This document shows, one piece after another, positions 3,152-32,254 of a DNA stretch of 32,254 nucleotides (within the stretch, counting starts at the first letter, position 1; each line of letters starts with the position of its first letter). The position numbers were made by a program, and so were the translations under genes. The stretch is taken from assembly GCF_016901955.1 (NCBI RefSeq), contig NZ_JACJLC010000028.1, positions 1 through 32,254 on the forward strand, written 5' to 3'. Under the pieces are notes generated by a model that saw only the letters and a list, made by a program, of their open reading frames with translations, was not told the DNA's origin and searched no databases. This stretch comes from Pseudoflavonifractor phocaeensis (lineage in GTDB: Bacteria > Bacillota > Clostridia > Oscillospirales > Oscillospiraceae).

Positions 3152-3196
3152 GCGCCAAACCATGCCGTGCCTCTCCACCTCAGAGCCACGTTGTCT

Positions 3197-3362
3197 GTAT
3201 CTTCGCAGCGGGTCTCCTGGCTTGCGCTTCCTCCTCCGGCACTCCTTCTCAGCCCCGTCGGGCCAATGGTTCACGCGCCTTTGTCCACGCTTACAGTAGA
3301 GGTAAGACTGCGCCGGATTCTCACCGGCTTCCCCTGTGCGGCACTGCCGCGACTGCGGATAC
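3197..3362 (-). ncRNA. Cobalamin riboswitch
   Basis: On the minus strand this segment shows the conserved core AGGGGAAGCCGGTGAGAATC and the CTGTAAGC region. The B12 box AAGCCAGGAGACC lies at 3211-3223. The closing P1 stem pairs GTATCCGCAG (3353-3362) with CTGCGAAGATAC (3197-3208). An open frame of 102 codons crosses it on the same strand and is an artefact. The element precedes a terminator and cbiD, so ligand binding should reduce cbiDFG transcription. Confidence 0.95.
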
Positions 3363-3379
3363 GGATTCATTTCTCGGTC

Positions 3380-24424: not shown

Positions 24425-24431
24425 GTCAATT

Positions 24432-24488
24432 CAGCCCCTCCAGTTCCTCCAGCCACAGGGCAGAAACAGCGTCGGAGGGCATCCGCCA
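24432..24488. repeat. Direct repeat A: duplicated nadE 3' end
   Basis: These 57 bases are identical to 24665-24721, the end of the nadE coding region. On the minus strand this copy still encodes the NadE C-terminal residues WRMPSDAVSALWLEELEGL, followed by Asn and a TGA. The ribosome site of the transporter gene lies within it. Confidence 0.9.
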
Positions 24489-24664
24489 GTCAGCCCCATG
24501 AAAGCAAACTTTCATGGGGACCCCATTTCTTTTTACTTCCTCGGCGGGAGTAAATCCCGCCTGCGGCAAGGCTTTTCCACGTCGCGGAAAAGCCTTGGGC
24601 ACGCCAAAGGCGCGGCTCGCTTTCACTCGCGGGCGATTGGCGGCTAAAACCATATTCATCATTC
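24489..24664. mobile_element. Hairpin-rich 176-bp insertion between two copies of the nadE end
   Basis: This segment separates the 57-bp direct repeats; the whole unit is 233 bp. It contains three stem-loops: 11-bp arms at 24494-24504/24509-24519, 7-bp arms at 24543-24549/24555-24561 and 12-bp arms at 24567-24578/24586-24597. It has no transposase. A 13-bp stretch at 24631-24643 is the inverted complement of 24716-24728 inside nadE. On the minus strand it is open in a frame that joins the second copy of the NadE tail. This looks like a non-autonomous palindromic element with a long target duplication, or a recombination product. Confidence 0.6.
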
Positions 24665-26581
24665 CAGCCCCTCCAGTTCCTCCAGCCACAGGGCAGAAAC
24701 AGCGTCGGAGGGCATCCGCCAATCGCCCCGGGGGGACAGGGACACCGACCCCACCTTGGGTCCATCGGGTAGGCAGGATCGCTTGAACTGCTGGACAAAG
24801 AACCGGCGGTAGAAGTTGTTCAGCCACTTCAGCAGGGTGGCCCGGTCATAGGCCCGCCCAAAGGCCTGCTCCGCCAACCGCAGCACCTTCCGGGGGGAGA
24901 AGCCCCACCGGATGGCGTAGTAGAGGTAGAAGTCGTGGAGCTCATAGGGCCCCACCAGATCCTCGGTCTTCTGGGCAATCTGCCCATTGATGGCGGGGAG
25001 CAGCTCGGGGGACACAGGGGTGTCCAGGATATCGGTGAGCACATCGGACAAAGCCTGATCCTCCTCCGCCTTGTCCCCGGCCACATAGCTCACCAGATGG
25101 CGCACCAGGGTCTTGGGGATGGAGCCGTTGACCCCGTACATGGACATATGATCTCCATTATAGGTAGCCCAGCCCAGGGCCAGCTCGGACAGGTCCCCGG
25201 TACCCACCACCAGGCCGTCGTTCTGGTTGGCAATATCCATAAGCACCTGGGTGCGTTCTCTGGCCTGACCGTTTTCAAAGGTCACGTCATGGTTGTCCAT
25301 GGACTGGCCGATGTCCCGGAAGTGCTGGCGCACCGCCTCCCCAATGTCGATCCGCTTCAGGGTGGCCCCCAGCCGGCCCGCCAGCTCCACGGCGTTGTCC
25401 CGGGTGCGGTCAGTGGTGCCGAAGCAGGGCATGGTAACGGCAATGATGTCGCTGGCCGGCCGGTCCAGCAGGTTCATGGCGATGGTGGTAATAAGGATGG
25501 CCAGGGTGGAATCCAGGCCGCCGGACAGGCCAACCACCGCCGTTTTGGCGTGGGTGTGCTCCAGCCGCTTTTTCAGGCCCAGAGCGGCGATCTTCAAAAT
25601 CTCCTCGCACCGCTCCGCCCGGTCGTCCTTGTCCTGGGGCACGAATGGAGTGGGCGAGACCGGCCGGGTCAGGTGGGTGTCCCCCACCGGCATCTGGAAG
25701 CCAATCCGCCAGAGGGTCTCCTCTTCCGCGTGCTGGAAGGTAGTCATCCGTTGGCGCTCATAGGCCAGCCGGTCTACATCGATCTCGCTGATGGTGAGAC
25801 CAGTGGCAAACCGCCGCTCGACCAGGATGGTGCCGTTCTCAGCGATGATATTGTGGCCGGTAAACACCAGATCGGTGGTGGACTCTCCCTCCCCGGCGTC
25901 GGCGTACACATAGCCGCACACCAGCCGTCCGCTCTGGCCGGATACCAAGCCCCGGCGGTAGGAAGCCTTGCCCACCAGCTCGTTGGAGGCGGACAGGTTC
26001 AGGATGAGGGTGGCTCCCGCTCGGGCGGCCCGGATGGAAGGGGGTTCGGCAGCCCACAGGTCCTCGCAGATCTCTACTCCGATAACCAGATTGGGCATCT
26101 CCTCACAGGCAAAGAGGTGGCCGTCGGAAAGGGTGACCTCCTGGCCGCACAGGGTGATGGTGGCATCCAGTCCCGCCCCCGGGGCAAACCACCGCTGCTC
26201 GTAAAATTCCCCGTAGTTGGGCAGGTGGGTCTTGGGCACCAGGCCCAGGATCTCTCCGCTCTGTATAACCGCGGCGCAATTATACAGTTTATTATCCCAC
26301 TTGCTGCGAACCGGCAGGCCCACCGCCGTGATCATGTCCAGATTTTTGGTGGCCTCCAGGATGGTGGCCAGGCCCTCCTCAGCCCCCCGCAGCAGGGTGG
26401 GCTGGAGAAACAGGTCCCCGCAGGTGTAGCCAGTGAGGCAGAGCTCCGGCAGGGCCAACACCTTCACCCCCTGCTTGTCGGCCTCCCGCATCATGGTAAA
26501 GATCTGCTCGGCGTTATACCGGCAGTCGGCCACCCGGATCCTGGGCGTGCCCGCCGCCACTTTCACAAATCCATCGCGCAT
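24659..26581 (-). CDS. nadE: Glutamine-dependent NAD+ synthetase
   Basis: The enzyme makes NAD+ from deamido-NAD with ATP, using ammonia released from glutamine. The 640-residue protein has an N-terminal nitrilase-type glutaminase domain with the triad E46 (LPELCLTGY), K117 (PKTHLPNYGEFYE) and C172 (VEICEDLW). A C-terminal synthetase domain carries the PP-loop SGGLDS at 353-358, and VVGTGDLSELALGW and KTLVRHLV follow. I start at ATG 26581 because AAAGGAGG lies ten bases before it. The C-terminus (DWRMPSDAVSALWLEELEG) is present in full and is duplicated downstream on either side of a 176-bp element. It leads the operon with the CHR transporter pair. Confidence 0.96.
   Translation of the reverse strand: MRDGFVKVAAGTPRIRVADCRYNAEQIFTMMREADKQGVKVLALPELCLTGYTCGDLFLQPTLLRGAEEGLATILEATKNLDMITAVGLPVRSKWDNKLYNCAAVIQSGEILGLVPKTHLPNYGEFYEQRWFAPGAGLDATITLCGQEVTLSDGHLFACEEMPNLVIGVEICEDLWAAEPPSIRAARAGATLILNLSASNELVGKASYRRGLVSGQSGRLVCGYVYADAGEGESTTDLVFTGHNIIAENGTILVERRFATGLTISEIDVDRLAYERQRMTTFQHAEEETLWRIGFQMPVGDTHLTRPVSPTPFVPQDKDDRAERCEEILKIAALGLKKRLEHTHAKTAVVGLSGGLDSTLAILITTIAMNLLDRPASDIIAVTMPCFGTTDRTRDNAVELAGRLGATLKRIDIGEAVRQHFRDIGQSMDNHDVTFENGQARERTQVLMDIANQNDGLVVGTGDLSELALGWATYNGDHMSMYGVNGSIPKTLVRHLVSYVAGDKAEEDQALSDVLTDILDTPVSPELLPAINGQIAQKTEDLVGPYELHDFYLYYAIRWGFSPRKVLRLAEQAFGRAYDRATLLKWLNNFYRRFFVQQFKRSCLPDGPKVGSVSLSPRGDWRMPSDAVSALWLEELEGLE
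24665..24721. repeat. Direct repeat B: nadE 3' end in the intact gene
   Basis: This is the partner of the 57-bp repeat at 24432-24488 and lies inside the intact nadE gene, coding for its last residues before the stop at 24659-24661. Confidence 0.9.
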
Positions 26582-26722: not shown

Positions 26723-27184
26723 TCAATATCGATTATCTGTGGTCCGCCCCTTCCGCTTCTGCTCCGGGGTAAAGTCGTTGGCATCCATGATGTCCTGGAG
26801 CTTTTCCACATACTTGCTGGAATTGTGGACCACAAAGGCGTCGCTGTCGATGGGGATACCCTGCTCGTCCATCTGACGGATGCTCCAGATGTACAGCGCG
26901 TCCAGGGCTGGGATCAGCTCCTCCCCACTGGGGGTGAGCACATACTCCACCTTGGGCGGAATGGTATCGTAGGAGATCCGGCGGATAAGCCCCGCGTCCG
27001 TCAATTCCTTCAACTGCTGGCTGAACACCTTCTCTGAAATGGGCAGCGCCTTCAGCGTCTGGTTGAACCGGATGCTTCCATAGGTATGTATCTCATGGAG
27101 AATGGTCATTTTCCACTTGCCGCCAATACACTGCAGCACATAGTGATATGGGTTGGTAGGCTCTTTAAAATGATCGCTCCACAC
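26723..27184 (-). CDS. HxlR-family winged-helix regulator
   Basis: HxlR (DUF24) proteins are dimeric regulators, several of which respond to phenols, quinones or aldehydes. The 153-residue form has the family core: HYVLQCIGGKWKMTILHEI near residues 14-32, RFNQTLKALPISEKVFSQQL, then the wing AGLIRRISYDTIPPKVEYVLT. A tail of about 50 residues beyond the usual end is rich in charged residues. In many members a Cys-Pro precedes the first helix; here the pair is Asn-Pro (NPYHY), with a Cys later at about C19, so thiol sensing of the YodB type is not assured. I prefer GTG 27184 after AAAGAGGG; GTG 27223 gives 166 residues. It diverges from the phloroglucinol-type operon and probably controls it. 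Confidence 0.9.
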   Translation of the reverse strand: MWSDHFKEPTNPYHYVLQCIGGKWKMTILHEIHTYGSIRFNQTLKALPISEKVFSQQLKELTDAGLIRRISYDTIPPKVEYVLTPSGEELIPALDALYIWSIRQMDEQGIPIDSDAFVVHNSSKYVEKLQDIMDANDFTPEQKRKGRTTDNRY

Positions 27185-27324
27185 GGACAGTACCCTCTTT
27201 CTTTGCTGGATTTTACATATCACGTTTCTGTATCTGGTCGGCTACTATCATATCATACCACCAGCCCCGCCCACAAGCGGCTCTTTGCCGCAGCCCCTTC
27301 CTGTGCGCCAAATTTTTCACAATA

Positions 27325-27345
27325 TTTTTGTACATACTGCACAGT
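27325..27345 (+). promoter_or_regulatory. Candidate operator, copy 1
   Basis: TTTTTGTACATACTGCACAG at this position begins a 21-base sequence with 18 matches to 32076-32096, and the similarity extends into the flanks (CCAAATTTTT before it, T-rich and TAAA after it). The core TTGTAC-N5-GCACA is an imperfect palindrome, as expected for a dimeric regulator. Confidence 0.5.
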
Positions 27346-27426: not shown

Positions 27427-27446
27427 CACTTACTTTTCAGTAAGTG
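27427..27446. promoter_or_regulatory. Candidate HxlR operator palindrome
   Basis: CACTTAC and GTAAGTG form perfect 7-bp arms around TTTTCA. Operators of DUF24/HxlR regulators such as YodB are of similar TTAC/GTAA type. The site lies between the divergent regulator and the operon. A further ACTTAC half-site occurs at about 27465-27470. Confidence 0.5.
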
Positions 27447-27474
27447 CGAACCTCACAGTTACCTACTTACATAA

Positions 27475-27490
27475 TTGTACGTATTGCACA
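27475..27490 (+). promoter_or_regulatory. Candidate operator, copy 2
   Basis: TTGTACGTATTGCACA matches the core of copy 1 at 13 of 16 positions and forms the imperfect palindrome TTGTAC-N5-GCACAA. It lies about 105 bases before the cupin start and overlaps a possible -35 box. Confidence 0.5.
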
Positions 27491-27595: not shown

Positions 27596-27946
27596 ATGGT
27601 CAAGCGTACTGTGGAAGAACTGAAGTCTTACGAGGCTGCCGGCCACTTCAACATGGTGGCGATGCGCATCCACGGCAAGGAGGAGACCGGTGCCGAGAAG
27701 TTCTGGGTGGGCGTGTCCACCTTCCTGCCCGGCGGCGGCGCTGAGTGGGCCTACGAGGACAACCCGCTGGAGAAGGTCTACTACGTGCTGGAGGGCGAGA
27801 TGACCGTCACCGACAAGGACGGCAAGAAGTACGTCATCCACAAGGATGAGTCCATCTCCTTCCCCCCCAACGAGGGCCGCGGCCTGCTGAACGAGAGCAA
27901 CCTCCCCGCCCGGATGCTGGTCATCATCAACTACCCCAACGCCTGA
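27596..27946 (+). CDS. Cupin-domain protein, first gene of the phloroglucinol-type operon
   Basis: This 116-residue single-domain cupin has a clear beta-barrel pattern: FLPGGGAEWAYEDNPLEKVYYVLEGEMTV spans residues 43-71 and DESISFPPNEGRGLLNESN 84-102. The family motif normally supplies two His and one Glu from the first part and one His from the second. Here the His positions are occupied by other residues, so a classical metal site appears to be missing. ATG 27596 follows AAAGGAG. The gene is 53 bases before the SDR gene, has the same extreme codon bias, and is surely co-expressed. It has no step in the known four-enzyme route. It could be an isomerase, tautomerase, binding protein or sensor; this is open. 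Confidence 0.85.
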   Translation: MVKRTVEELKSYEAAGHFNMVAMRIHGKEETGAEKFWVGVSTFLPGGGAEWAYEDNPLEKVYYVLEGEMTVTDKDGKKYVIHKDESISFPPNEGRGLLNESNLPARMLVIINYPNA

Positions 27947-27999
27947 GCTCATCCCCTTGTTCCTGAAACGCTTTACATATTATAAGGAGGAAGATCGTC

Positions 28000-28809
28000 A
28001 TGGTTCCTGTTCAGAAGTCTTTTGTTGAAAATATGTTCTCCGTGAAGGACAAGGTGGCTCTGGTCACCGGCGCCACCGGCGCTCTGGGCTGCGTGCTGGC
28101 CAAGGCTTACGGCTACGCCGGCGCCAAGGTCTTCATGACCGGCCGCAACGACGCCAAGCTGAAGGCCCTGGAGGACGAGTTCAAGGCCGAGGGCATCGAC
28201 TGCGCTTACTTCGTGGCCGACCCCGCCAAGGAAGAGGACGTGGACGCTCTGGTAAAGGCCTGCGTGGCCAAGTACGGCTGCATCGACATCCTGGCTGTGT
28301 CTCACGGCTACAACAAGCCCCAGAACGTGCTGGATCAGTCCGTGGCCGACTGGCAGTACATCATGGACGCCGACTGCAAGAGCGTGTACATCGTCACCAA
28401 GTACGTGGCCCATCAGATGGTGGCTCAGTACGAGGCCGACAACACCAAGCGCGGCAAGATGGTCATCGTTACCTCTCAGCGCTCCAAGCGCGGCATGGCC
28501 GGCTACACCGGTTACTGCACCTCCAAGGGCGGCGCCGACCTGATGGTGTCCTGCCTGGCCTGCGACCTGTCCGCCAAGTACCACATCAACGTCAACTCCA
28601 TCTGCCCCACCGTGTTCCGCTCCGACCTGACCGAGTGGATGTTCGATCCCGAGTCCGCCGTGTACAAGAACTTCCTCAACCGTGAGCCCATCGGCCGCCT
28701 GGGCGAGCCCGACGACTTCGTTGGCTACGCTCTGTTCCTGTCCTCCGACGCCTCCAACTTCATCACCGGCAGCAACTGCGACTGCTCCGGCGGCTACCTG
28801 GTGGTGTGA
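28000..28809 (+). CDS. Short-chain dehydrogenase/reductase, probable phloroglucinol reductase
   Basis: The 269-residue SDR has the cofactor loop TGATGALG (23-30), R49 after the second strand (favouring NADPH) and the catalytic pair in YCTSK (Y172, K176), with S159 before it. The usual NNAG is replaced by LAVSHGY (about 98-104). The C-terminal [26 protein letters not shown] is typical of the classical SDRs. In the proposed route it would reduce phloroglucinol to dihydrophloroglucinol, the step that breaks aromaticity. ATG 28000 is preceded by AAGGAGG. The assignment rests mainly on the neighbours; by itself it would be annotated only as an SDR. Confidence 0.78.
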
Positions 28810-28839
28810 TTCCGGTTACGGAAAGGACGGCGAAACCCA

Positions 28840-29769
28840 ATGAAAACCATTAAAAATATCCTGATCTGCGGCGCGGGCATGATGGGTAAGAACATCGGCT
28901 TCGTGTTCGCCTCCAATCCCGATTTCCAGGTGGGCATGTACGACCTGTACCCCACCGACGTGGAGGCCGGCATCCGTACCAACACCAAGCAGCTGGTGGA
29001 CAAGGGGGTCCTCACCGAGGAGGAGCTGGCCGACCGGCTCTCCCGGATCTCCTTCACCAACGACATCGACAGCGACATCGTCAAGAACGCCGACTTCGTC
29101 ATCGAGGCCGTGTTCGAGGACATGAAAATCAAGCGGGAGACCTTCGCCAAGCTGGAGGCCCGCTGCGCTGAGGACACCATCTTCTGCACCAACTCCTCCG
29201 TCATGAGCCCCAGCGAGATTTCCGCTGAGCTCAAGCACCGGGAGCGCTTCGTGGGCACCCACTTCTGGAACCCCGGCCACCTGATTCCCCTGGTGGAGGT
29301 GGTGAAATCCGATGCCTCCTCCGACGAAGTGGCTCAGACCGTCATGGAAGTGCTTCGCTCCGTGGGTAAGAAGCCCGTGCTGTGCAAGAAGGACGTGCCC
29401 GGCTTCATCGCCAACCGTATGCAGCACGCCCTGTGGCGTGAGGCTATCTCCATTGTGGAGAACGGCATCGCCGATGCCGCCACCGTGGACGAGGCGGTCC
29501 GCTACTCCTTCGGTCTCCGTCTGCCCCAGCTGGGCCCCATGGAGAACGCCGACATGGTGGGCACCGACCTCACCTTCAACATCCACAACTACATCCTCCA
29601 GGACCTGGAGGATTCTCACAAGCCCTCTCCCCTGCTGGAGCGGCTGAAGAACGAGGGCAAGATCGGCTTCAAGACCGGCGAGGGCTTCCAGAAGTGGACC
29701 CCCGAGCAGGCTGCCAAGGCCAATGCTGATCTGAACGAGTACCTGATCCGGATGCTCTACGGCAAGTAA
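28840..29769 (+). CDS. 3-hydroxyacyl-CoA dehydrogenase-like enzyme, probable 3-hydroxy-5-oxohexanoate dehydrogenase
   Basis: The 309-residue protein has an N-terminal NAD-binding domain (GAGMMGKNIG, 11-20; D35 at the end of the second strand points to NAD). The catalytic His-Glu pair is in HFWNPGHLIPLVEVV (H141, E153). The helical C-terminal domain has VPGFIANRMQHALWREA. The HFWNP form differs from the HFFNPAP of butyryl-CoA-type enzymes and resembles relatives that oxidise free beta-hydroxy acids, such as carnitine dehydrogenase. In the route it would oxidise 3-hydroxy-5-oxohexanoate to 3,5-dioxohexanoate (triacetate). It starts 30 bases after the SDR gene, with GGAAAGGA upstream. Confidence 0.78.
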   Translation: MKTIKNILICGAGMMGKNIGFVFASNPDFQVGMYDLYPTDVEAGIRTNTKQLVDKGVLTEEELADRLSRISFTNDIDSDIVKNADFVIEAVFEDMKIKRETFAKLEARCAEDTIFCTNSSVMSPSEISAELKHRERFVGTHFWNPGHLIPLVEVVKSDASSDEVAQTVMEVLRSVGKKPVLCKKDVPGFIANRMQHALWREAISIVENGIADAATVDEAVRYSFGLRLPQLGPMENADMVGTDLTFNIHNYILQDLEDSHKPSPLLERLKNEGKIGFKTGEGFQKWTPEQAAKANADLNEYLIRMLYGK

Positions 29770-29820
29770 GCTGTCCGGTCCATTCCAAGCACTGTATTAT
29801 CATCAAGGAGGTAACCCATC

Positions 29821-30834
29821 ATGGGCAAGACTGTTTTTGTTGACCTGACCCATCCCTTTGGCGCTGAGATCCCCCGCTGGCCCTACTTTGATAAGCCCGA
29901 CATCGTGGGCGCCCACTCCATGGCCAAGGGCGGCGTGCTGACCCAGCGCATCACCTGCACCATGCACACCGGCACTCACTGCGACGCTCCCCGTCACGTC
30001 ATGGAGTATGAGTTCGACGGCCGCCGGGCCCGTTACTCCGACGAGATGCCCATCGACGCCTACACCGGTCAGGCTGTTGTGCTGAAGATCGACATCGAGC
30101 CCTGGGGCCTGATCACCGACAAGCACCTGGACGCCGCCTGCGAGAAGTACGGCATCAACCAGGCTGACCTGGAGGGCAAGGTTGTCTGCCTGAACACCGG
30201 TATGCACCGCCTGTTCGACGACTCCAAGGCCTACTATCACTATGCCGCCGGCACCGGTGTTGAGGCTGGTAAGTGGTTTGTCAAGAACAAGGTCAAGTGC
30301 GTGGCCATGGACAGCCAGGCTCTGGACCACCCCCTGCACACCGCCATGGGCAACAACGGCATGACCCGCATGAACCTGCTGGGCGCCACCGGCCGTCCCA
30401 TCACCGAGGAGTACAAGGAGCTGTTCGGCGAGGAGGCCTATGCCAAGTTCGACAAGGACGAGTACATCCGCATCTACGGCCAGAAGGCTTACGACGAGAT
30501 GTATGGCGATCTGGAGAACATCGGCGTTTGGGGCACCTGGGAGCCCTGCCACAAGGAGATGCTGGGCCATGGCATCGTGGGCGTTGAGAACCTGGGCGGC
30601 GACCTGGACAAGATCCCCGCTGGCGTGTGGTTCCGCTTCAACTGCTTCCCCCTGCGTTGGTACATGGGCGACGGCTCCATGGCCCGCTGCAGCGCCGAGA
30701 TCGACGAGGACCTGCTGCTGAAGGACGTTCCCACCCGTACCTACAAGTACGGCGGCACCGGCTACGGCGAGGCCGAGGGCAACGGCGACAGCGGCCTGGA
30801 GTACATCCAGAAGCTGTTCAACCGCAACAAGTAA
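29821..30834 (+). CDS. Cyclase-family hydrolase, probable dihydrophloroglucinol cyclohydrolase
   Basis: The 337-residue protein belongs to the cyclase/kynurenine-formamidase family (PF04199), shown by HTGTHCDAPRHV at 49-60. There H49, H53 and D55 are the expected metal ligands and H59 the catalytic histidine. It is longer than typical formamidases (about 210 residues) and has a tryptophan- and aromatic-rich C-terminal half. In the route it would hydrolyse a carbon-carbon bond of the cyclic 1,3-diketone dihydrophloroglucinol to give 3-hydroxy-5-oxohexanoate. ATG 29821 follows AAGGAGGTAACCCATC. Other cyclic diketone or lactam substrates are possible if judged from this gene alone. Confidence 0.78.
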   Translation: MGKTVFVDLTHPFGAEIPRWPYFDKPDIVGAHSMAKGGVLTQRITCTMHTGTHCDAPRHVMEYEFDGRRARYSDEMPIDAYTGQAVVLKIDIEPWGLITDKHLDAACEKYGINQADLEGKVVCLNTGMHRLFDDSKAYYHYAAGTGVEAGKWFVKNKVKCVAMDSQALDHPLHTAMGNNGMTRMNLLGATGRPITEEYKELFGEEAYAKFDKDEYIRIYGQKAYDEMYGDLENIGVWGTWEPCHKEMLGHGIVGVENLGGDLDKIPAGVWFRFNCFPLRWYMGDGSMARCSAEIDEDLLLKDVPTRTYKYGGTGYGEAEGNGDSGLEYIQKLFNRNK

Positions 30835-30878
30835 TTTTGTCTCCACCTAATACTTTCCCTTCCCTATACACCAGCCAA

Positions 30879-30914
30879 GCGCAAAGCGGCGGGCAGTCGC
30901 CCGCCGCTTTGCGC
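30879..30914 (+). other. Hairpin between the cyclohydrolase and BKACE genes
   Basis: A perfect 15-bp stem (GCGCAAAGCGGCGGG arm) with a 6-base loop lies in a 121-base gap. It is not followed by a T-run, so it is more likely an mRNA-stabilising or processing element, or a partial terminator, than a true operon end. Confidence 0.6.
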
Positions 30915-30955
30915 CATATCCCCCACACCCTACTGAGAAAGGACTTTGAGTTATC

Positions 30956-31804
30956 ATGGCCGATCTGAAGAACAAGACCATTATTACCGTGGCCACCACC
31001 GGCGCCTGGCCCACCAAGGAAAACAATCCCAACGTGCCCATGACCCCCGCTGAAATCGCCGAGGACGTGTACGCCTGCTGGAAAGCCGGCGCCGCCGTCG
31101 CCCACCTGCACATGCGGGACGACCAGGGTAAGGGCACTATGGACAAGGAGAAGTTCCGCCAGACCGTGGAGCTGCTGCGGGCCAACCACCCCGACTGCGA
31201 CATCATCCTGAACATGACCACCTCCGGCGACCTGAACGCCACCGACGAGACCCGCCAGATCCACCTGAAGGAGCTGCGCCCCGAGATGGGTTCCTACGAC
31301 TGCGGCTCCATGAACTGGCTGCACACCTCCCTGTTCCTCAATCCTCCCGCCTTCCTGGAGGAGCTGGGCAAGAATATGCAGGAATGGGGCGTAAAGCCTG
31401 AGATCGAGGCCTTTGACCCCGGCATGATCGCCAACGCCCAGTACTATCTGAAGAAGGGCGTACTCAAGGGGCCCCTGCACTTCCAGTTCTGCATGGGTTG
31501 CGCCAACGGCATTCCCGGCTCTATGAAGAACCTGATTTTCATGAAGGAGACCATGGAGTCCCTGTGCCCCGGCTCCACCTGGAGCTGCTTCGGCGTGGGC
31601 CACTCTGCCATGACCATGCTGTACGGCGCCGTGGCCCTGGGCGGCCACATCCGCGTGGGCATGGAGGACAATGTCATGTACTCTAAGGGCGTTCTGGCGG
31701 ACAGCAACGTGCAGTTCGTGGAACGGGCTCGCCGGGTCATCGAGGAGTTCGGCAAGCAGGTCGCTACTCCCGCCGAGGCCCGCGAGATCCTCAGCCTGAA
31801 GTAA
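30956..31804 (+). CDS. BKACE-family enzyme, probable triacetate acetoacetate-lyase
   Basis: Beta-keto acid cleavage enzymes (formerly DUF849) react a beta-keto acid with acetyl-CoA to give acetoacetate and a new acyl-CoA. The 282-residue protein has the N-terminal TVATTGAWPT, the metal-binding HLHMRD (H50, H52), GCANGIPGS near 181-189, and the C-terminal GGHIRVGMEDN (229-239, with H231, R233 and E237). With 3,5-dioxohexanoate as substrate the products are acetoacetate and acetoacetyl-CoA, ready for thiolysis or butyrate formation. ATG 30956 has a weak, distant AAAGGA. It is the last gene of the operon, after a gap with a hairpin. Related members act on 3-keto-5-aminohexanoate or dehydrocarnitine, so the substrate is inferred from context. 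Confidence 0.8.
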   Translation: MADLKNKTIITVATTGAWPTKENNPNVPMTPAEIAEDVYACWKAGAAVAHLHMRDDQGKGTMDKEKFRQTVELLRANHPDCDIILNMTTSGDLNATDETRQIHLKELRPEMGSYDCGSMNWLHTSLFLNPPAFLEELGKNMQEWGVKPEIEAFDPGMIANAQYYLKKGVLKGPLHFQFCMGCANGIPGSMKNLIFMKETMESLCPGSTWSCFGVGHSAMTMLYGAVALGGHIRVGMEDNVMYSKGVLADSNVQFVERARRVIEEFGKQVATPAEAREILSLK

Positions 31805-32075: not shown

Positions 32076-32096
32076 TTTTTGTGCATACTTTACAGT
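32076..32096 (+). promoter_or_regulatory. Candidate operator, copy 3
   Basis: This 21-base sequence (core TTGTGCATACTTTACAG) matches 27325-27345 at 18 positions. Its flanks also match: CCAAATTTTT stands about 6-8 bases before both copies, and a T-rich stretch with TAAA follows both. It lies about 110 bases before the promoter at 32203. Confidence 0.5.
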
Positions 32097-32202
32097 CTGT
32101 TTTTAAAATCCTTTGTTCCTTTTATTTGCTCGTCAAAAGTTTAACTAATGTCTACTGAATAACAGAAAAAGCCTTATATATCAAGCTATAGAAGGCGTTT
32201 TA

Positions 32203-32211
32203 TGGTATAAT
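32203..32211 (+). promoter_or_regulatory. Extended -10 promoter element at the right edge
   Basis: TGGTATAAT is an extended -10 box; no good -35 hexamer stands 17 bases upstream, so an activator may be needed. The predicted start falls within the inverted repeat GGTGCAAGG (32213-32221)/CCTTGCACC (32246-32254). Confidence 0.5.
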
Positions 32212-32254
32212 AGGTGCAAGGAAAAGAGGGAAAATGCGCAAAAAACCTTGCACC

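Follow-up and report, generated by a model that had tools for sequence, protein, structure and literature searches.

Anaerobic phloroglucinol breakdown has been described for Clostridium scatologenes, in which phloroglucinol reductase (PGR), dihydrophloroglucinol cyclohydrolase (DPGC), (S)-3-hydroxy-5-oxohexanoate dehydrogenase (TfD) and triacetate acetoacetate-lyase (TAL) were characterised and the conversion of phloroglucinol to acetoacetate and acetoacetyl-CoA was reconstituted (Zhou et al. 2023, PMC10470551). According to the main text of that paper, F. plautii, E. ramulus and E. oxidoreducens appear to share the cluster, and Eubacterium ramulus is among the reported phloroglucinol degraders; of the papers on dihydrophloroglucinol gene clusters found in the open-licence PMC literature, it is the only one that by title concerns the pathway. 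Here we analyse a five-gene operon on the + strand (27596-31804) of a 32,254-nt stretch of DNA from Pseudoflavonifractor phocaeensis (the window), which is one contig (C191) of a 3.5-Mb genome whose genus is common to Flavonifractor strains including An82, An112, An10 and AGMB03687. We put at about 0.9 the probability that these genes form a complete operon by which a Flavonifractor degrades phloroglucinol anaerobically, probably under HxlR control. Judged by its predicted proteins, the operon encodes the known pathway, whose presence in this genus has been reported before.

The window resembles the C. scatologenes cluster in its four enzyme families, in the marker residues checked and in having a regulator and a transporter nearby, and differs in that a cupin gene precedes PGR and the regulator is of the HxlR type; the words cupin and HxlR are absent from the main text of PMC10470551. 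Two E. ramulus genomes (loci L143 and L147) carry all four enzymes in the same order (PGR, TfD, DPGC, TAL), at identities of 74-82% (TfD 62%) and with a comparable intercistronic hairpin, whereas their cupin is diverged (33-35%) and on the opposite strand and their HxlR relative lies some 6 kb downstream. The first-pass annotation had called the pathway itself known, and knew of no description of the cupin, the HxlR control and the shared operators: the pathway and its occurrence in F. plautii are indeed already published (PMC10470551, main text) and carry no novelty, while links of the cupin (searched by title) or of HxlR to phloroglucinol catabolism were not found in the open-licence PMC literature, supplements not covered.

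Predicted enzymes of the phloroglucinol pathway

The five open reading frames lie in the order cupin, short-chain dehydrogenase/reductase (SDR), hydroxyacyl dehydrogenase, PF04199 cyclase and BKACE, separated by gaps of 53, 30, 51 and 121 nt, and in a profile search all five proteins exceed the Pfam gathering scores. The coordinates, shared strand and families proposed in the first-pass annotation are borne out, as are the two motifs it quoted, HTGTHCDAPRH (residues 49-59 of the cyclase) and HFWNP (starting at residue 141 of the dehydrogenase). All four genes whose joint presence defines an anaerobic phloroglucinol cluster (PGR, DPGC, TfD and TAL) occur together.

The nearest solved structure to the predicted NADPH-dependent PGR (28000-28809, + strand; 269 aa; PF13561/PF00106) over the whole SDR length is 5g4k/5g4l (491.7 bits to 5g4k; 492 against 121 bits for the next structure), from which it differs by a 5-residue gap and scattered substitutions. 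These entries bear a generic name only, and we take them to be the PGR of Clostridium sp. ATCC BAA-442, an enzyme reportedly described by Conradt in 2016. The window protein has TGRN from residue 47, aligned to the TGRN of 5g4k, and YCTSK from residue 172; relative to the NADPH motif given as TR(S/N) (PMC10470551, main text), one residue intervenes. In TfD (28840-29769, + strand; 309 aa; PF02737 and PF00725, 3HCDH) the 3HCDH active-site Ser/His/Asn are kept as S120, H141 and N192, which correspond at a constant offset of two to residues 122, 143 and 194 in C. scatologenes; two CoA-binding residues (Lys56 and Asn221 equivalents) are described as lost in the pathway enzyme (PMC10470551, main text). 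DPGC (29821-30834, + strand; 337 aa; PF04199) retains the metal motif, and W20, Y22, H49, H53 and D55 are invariant in 15 of the 15 aligned sequences. The defining activity of a DPGC is Mn2+-dependent hydrolysis of dihydrophloroglucinol. W20 and Y22, which replace the Ile and Leu of isatin hydrolase, stand at the same residue numbers as in PMC10470551. Lastly, TAL (30956-31804, + strand; 282 aa; PF05853, 360.2 bits) has W18 aligned to the Glu of the Kce structure 2y7d, that is, Trp instead of Glu14 of the lysine-fermentation Kce.

From these sequences we infer for the window the four steps that others demonstrated with the enzymes of C. scatologenes. PGR would reduce phloroglucinol with NADPH to dihydrophloroglucinol, DPGC would open the ring hydrolytically to (S)-3-hydroxy-5-oxohexanoate, TfD would oxidise this to triacetate, and TAL would convert triacetate and acetyl-CoA to acetoacetate and acetoacetyl-CoA, both of which may feed into butyrate fermentation. 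A gene of the phloretin hydrolase family (PF18089, 269.5 bits) lies on contig C91 of the same genome, and its product probably frees phloroglucinol from the flavonoid A ring, which lends support to the earlier suggestion that the bacterium uses that ring; the adjoining gene encodes a 663-aa Oxidored_FMN/FAD enzyme that would fit an upstream flavonoid route. Degradation of the A ring of flavonoids to short-chain fatty acids is one way in which diet leads to butyrate in the gut.

The grouping of these genes recurs among relatives. A family search for the cyclase (threshold E 1e-60 or better) found it in 48 of 300 genomes, and the best 80 of 242 DPGC relatives were fetched as named loci with flanks, a set that overlaps partly with the loci of an earlier survey. 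With presence defined as a match of at least 55 bits, all four enzymes are matched in 60 of the 80 loci, so that the grouping is not a matter of chance; the cupin is present in 51 and HxlR in 49. In a few four-enzyme loci (L100, L114) TfD is only 32-33% identical. Among the other 20 loci several are cut by contig ends, and for L077, L079, L082, L084, L117 and L119 the flank that was fetched contains no TfD and no TAL.

Several points weigh against the phloroglucinol assignment. None of the five proteins reaches the cut-off of a listed NCBIfam model (for the SDR, among the 25 of 219 matches listed), and the BKACE scores 216.9 bits against the 3,5-dioxohexanoate model NF053538, whose cut-off is 430, below its score against the lysine Kce model (300.6 bits). 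The residue matches use the numbers printed in the main text of PMC10470551 rather than aligned C. scatologenes sequences, and the surveyed loci are mutually related, so that their counts are not independent. Since SDR, hydroxyacyl dehydrogenase and BKACE are broad families, the same kinds of enzyme might instead ferment lysine, degrade carnitine or inositol or cleave some other cyclic diketone, a reading to which the closeness of the Kce model and the presence of a distinct SDR-cupin-BKACE cluster in AGMB03687 (L163) lend some weight. We consider it improbable: W20 and Y22 are invariant across the aligned DPGC sequences, E. ramulus carries the same gene set, and the lysine and carnitine pathways, which the first-pass annotation had itself raised as alternatives, are rejected because the Kce equivalog model stays below its 382-bit cut-off, the amino-group-binding Glu of Kce is replaced by Trp in TAL, and the carnitine dehydrogenase models are matched only far below cut-off. 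Still more improbable is that the main natural substrates are phloroglucinol relatives (methylphloroglucinol, acylphloroglucinols) with phloroglucinol a minor one, for although the family has diversified, as paralogous cyclases and dehydrogenases on C268/C270 of this genome and in the relatives L051 and L052 indicate, the window enzymes fall within the main conserved cluster, and phloroglucinol would be the product of the genome's phloretin-hydrolase-family enzyme. The four families, the marker residues, the nearest structure and the E. ramulus gene set together support assignment to the phloroglucinol pathway.

The cupin upstream of the reductase

The first gene of the operon (27596-27946, + strand) encodes a 116-aa protein of the PF07883 Cupin_2 family. 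Its association with PGR was examined in 73 loci whose PGR shares 50% identity or more, of which 66 were eligible (700 nt upstream, near-full start). A cupin gene lies directly 5' of PGR on the same strand in 47 of the 66, at a gap of 14-246 nt (median 41), and in L077 and L082 another, diverged cupin occupies the usual position. Cupins related to the window protein also adjoin an SDR in L051/L052 and L163.

The AlphaFold2 model of the cupin is of high predicted local distance difference test score (mean pLDDT 93.3), and in a Foldseek ranking TM1459 comes first, followed by RemF and auxin-binding protein, all of them general cupin matches only. TM1459 and RemF share with the model a cupin fold of one domain (TM-score about 0.8 when normalised by query length), at 19-23% identity; the window cupin differs in having no histidine in either of the two cupin motifs (residues 45-67 and 84-99, positions matched by eye). 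The HxH...E and H ligands of metal-dependent cupin enzymes are not found in it, and given its histidine-free motifs the protein is read as a non-metal cupin. Twelve columns are invariant in an alignment of 34 sequences, including H17, E59 and N99. The best NCBIfam model is that of a mycobacterial beta-galactosidase cupin, matched below cut-off.

What the protein does is open to two main readings. We entertain tentatively, as a proposal clearly less likely than not, that it is an abundant metal-free accessory of the reductase step, for example one that speeds keto-enol tautomerisation of phloroglucinol or of the dihydro product. Such a helper would bind phloroglucinol or dihydrophloroglucinol and aid the keto-enol change needed by PGR or DPGC, and reductase modules elsewhere, among them the SDR-cupin pairs of L051/L052 and L163, would have the diverged cupins as their helpers. 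Speaking against a helper, 19 of the 66 eligible loci have no cupin 5' of PGR (two of them being the E. ramulus loci with the diverged gene on the opposite strand), two of three distant cupin paralogues (L162, L164) have no adjoining SDR among the open reading frames read by eye, and the cupin is not among the enzymes of the four-enzyme C. scatologenes reconstitution as described in the main text of PMC10470551. The absences, the place of the cupin outside the four enzymes of that reconstitution and the histidine-free motifs favour a passenger or sensor outside the chemistry, a reading to which we give a little under even odds; it sits less easily with a codon adaptation index (CAI) of 0.76, near the 0.78 of EF-Tu, which argues for abundance, and with the two diverged cupin types that adjoin PGR. 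Taken together, passenger, sensor and other binding protein hold a larger share than the helper.

Two clusters from this comparison are described here in their own right. L163 (AGMB03687 contig C14, 5939-14001) holds in a row an SDR, a cupin, a BKACE, an ECH-family protein, a thiolase, a CoA-transferase pair, an MFS transporter and a dehydrogenase, the thiolase, transferase, MFS protein and last dehydrogenase being identified by eye from sequence; by its gene content it is another catabolic cluster, with a cupin adjoining an SDR. L051 and L052 hold a second cyclase cluster, with matches to cupin (36-37%), SDR (31%), TfD (55-56%) and DPGC (68-69%) and no match to TAL.

Probable HxlR sites, intercistronic hairpin and transporter

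Upstream of the operon and divergent from it lies a gene for an HxlR-family regulator (26723-27223, - strand; PF01638, 82.7 bits), and among the 49 loci that have an HxlR relative, 44 have it divergent from cupin/PGR. The intervening region of the window contains the perfect palindrome ACTTACTTTTCAGTAAGT (27428-27445) and a near copy with one mismatch, ACTTACATAATTGTACGT (27465-27482), which we regard as probable HxlR operators 1 and 2; palindromic sites in the region separating an operon from a divergent HxlR gene are the layout of HxlR regulation. The two are half of the four sites that the genome contains at up to one mismatch from ACTTACTTTTCAGTAAGT, with two per strand for a reversed-pattern control. 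The pattern TTACY-N4-6-RGTAA with at most one change occurs in 30 of 44 intergenic regions of relatives, against a mean of 6.9 and a largest count of 15 in shuffles. A 21-nt box, TTTTTGTRCATACTNNACAGT, occurs on the + strand at 27325-27345 and again beyond the operon at 32076-32096, and these are the only two sites in the 3.5-Mb genome at up to three mismatches for a search pattern that was derived from the same two sites. The box is a possible separate operator; a scan for promoter consensus sequences detected none that would serve the operon next to the operators. The shared operators suggested earlier have in the palindromes and the box a basis in the sequence.

Weighing against operator function, the pattern was not found in 14 of the 44 regions, including those of Flavonifractor L099, L126 and L128 (in which the box is degenerate), and the controls for operators and hairpin alike are single-base shuffles. 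We nevertheless consider that the operon is probably controlled by HxlR via the twin palindromes upstream of the cupin, with phloroglucinol or an intermediate as the probable signal sensed.

Within the operon, an RNA hairpin with a 16-bp stem and no U tract is predicted between DPGC and TAL (30879-30914, + strand). Across 46 loci, 33 have a stem of 11 pairs or more in this gap (median 15, against a mean of 5.5 after shuffling). The corresponding counts for the remaining three gaps, which are shorter (median 32, 55 and 41 vs 92 nt), are 3 of 43, 3 of 53 and 0 of 45; the stem sequences differ among genera. A reading as terminator was rejected for most loci, since by eye very few tails have a U tract (L141 has one, and L090 and L092 are T-rich). 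The hairpin probably stabilises the upstream mRNA, and PGR, TfD and DPGC would be made in excess of TAL.

An MFS gene follows TAL in An82, An112, AGMB03687 and L129, with similar repeats (by eye) in the promoters, and a version of the 21-nt box with 3-4 differences stands upstream of it in An82 and An112; a relative of this gene is present in 21 of the 80 loci. The window genome has its own MFS gene (93% identical) on contig C285, the promoter of which contains CTTACCTCTTGGTAATC, a palindrome similar to the operators, and HxlR probably acts there also. The window itself ends, at the contig edge, in the end of a repeated insertion-sequence-like element (32140-32254), 99% copies of which (114 nt, matching 32140-32253) stand at the ends of C247 and C15. 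Inverted ends TAATGTCTACTGAA(T/C)AAC match between the window and C285, suggesting an element inserted between TAL and the transporter gene; the repeated element has probably been inserted before the transporter.

The pathway is known, but little was found on its control and accessory parts. The cupin, the probable HxlR operators and the hairpin between DPGC and TAL offer handles on how it is switched on and balanced.

Codon usage, the DPGC allele and related clusters

Codon usage points to high expression of all five genes. With a reference set made up of this genome's rpsL, rpsG, fusA and tuf (0.70-0.78 when scored on themselves, which favours them), CAI is 0.76 for the cupin, 0.81 for PGR, 0.69 for TfD, 0.85 for DPGC and 0.69 for TAL, compared with 0.31-0.55 in 22 other window genes named from the open reading frames. 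Standing against a special status for the operon, ten genes picked on other contigs include a second cyclase with CAI 0.79 and a thiolase with 0.67 (the rest 0.35-0.60), and the value for the cyclase means that strong codon bias is not confined to the operon. If the codon-usage reading is true, phloroglucinol use would belong to the mainstream, heavily expressed metabolism of the genus rather than being a sideline.

At fourfold sites the operon genes are 69-82% identical to those of An112 and AGMB03687, compared with 76-88% for ribosomal, elongation and rpoB genes and 62-73% for four neighbouring genes; over three relatives the operon resembles ribosomal and elongation genes and lies mostly above the four neighbours. 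Conservation of this kind fits expression rather than recent transfer, and recent horizontal transfer of the whole operon was rejected as its cause, with DPGC as the exception. Unlike those of several other Flavonifractor, the DPGC allele of the window is in 100-nt steps over 29901-30800 94-100% identical to An82 and 73-95% to AGMB03687, An112, L129, L131 and An10 (85-95% in the three middle steps, 30301-30600), whereas flanking PGR, TfD and TAL steps are mostly 85-100% identical to AGMB03687, An112, L129 and L131. An approximately unbiased (AU) test rejects trees in which eight Flavonifractor rows are kept as one group; the rejection is firm for DPGC (p 1.7e-66) and less so for PGR (p 0.012), the group having been chosen after the identities were seen, with eight rows labelled and the Flavonifractor-named rows L117, L119 and L138 left unlabelled. 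In the TAL tree, for which 6 of the 8 rows qualified, the six form one side of a branch with support 96; in the DPGC tree the starred branches by themselves do not force two origins, but the AU test does. From the identity steps and the AU test, DPGC has apparently been replaced in place in the window lineage. In L115 and L119, PGR is only 84% and 68% identical, yet the cupin is 93-96% identical, and other operon genes thus also seem to be exchanged between lineages.

Elsewhere in the same genome, contigs C268 (L054) and C270 (L053) carry a second partial set, which possibly acts on a related substrate. It comprises a BKACE that shares 84% identity with TAL, an HpaB-family gene, another PF04199 cyclase (38-55%, in pieces at contig ends), another 3HCDH protein (28%), another MFS gene (47%) and a sigma-54 activator. 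Away from the operon, the window contains a cobalamin riboswitch (RF00174, 90.4 bits; 3190-3372, minus strand) near open reading frames that resemble cobalamin-synthesis genes, and a 71-nt direct repeat (93% identical; 24426-24496 and 24659-24729) that overlaps the 3' end of a NadE-like gene.

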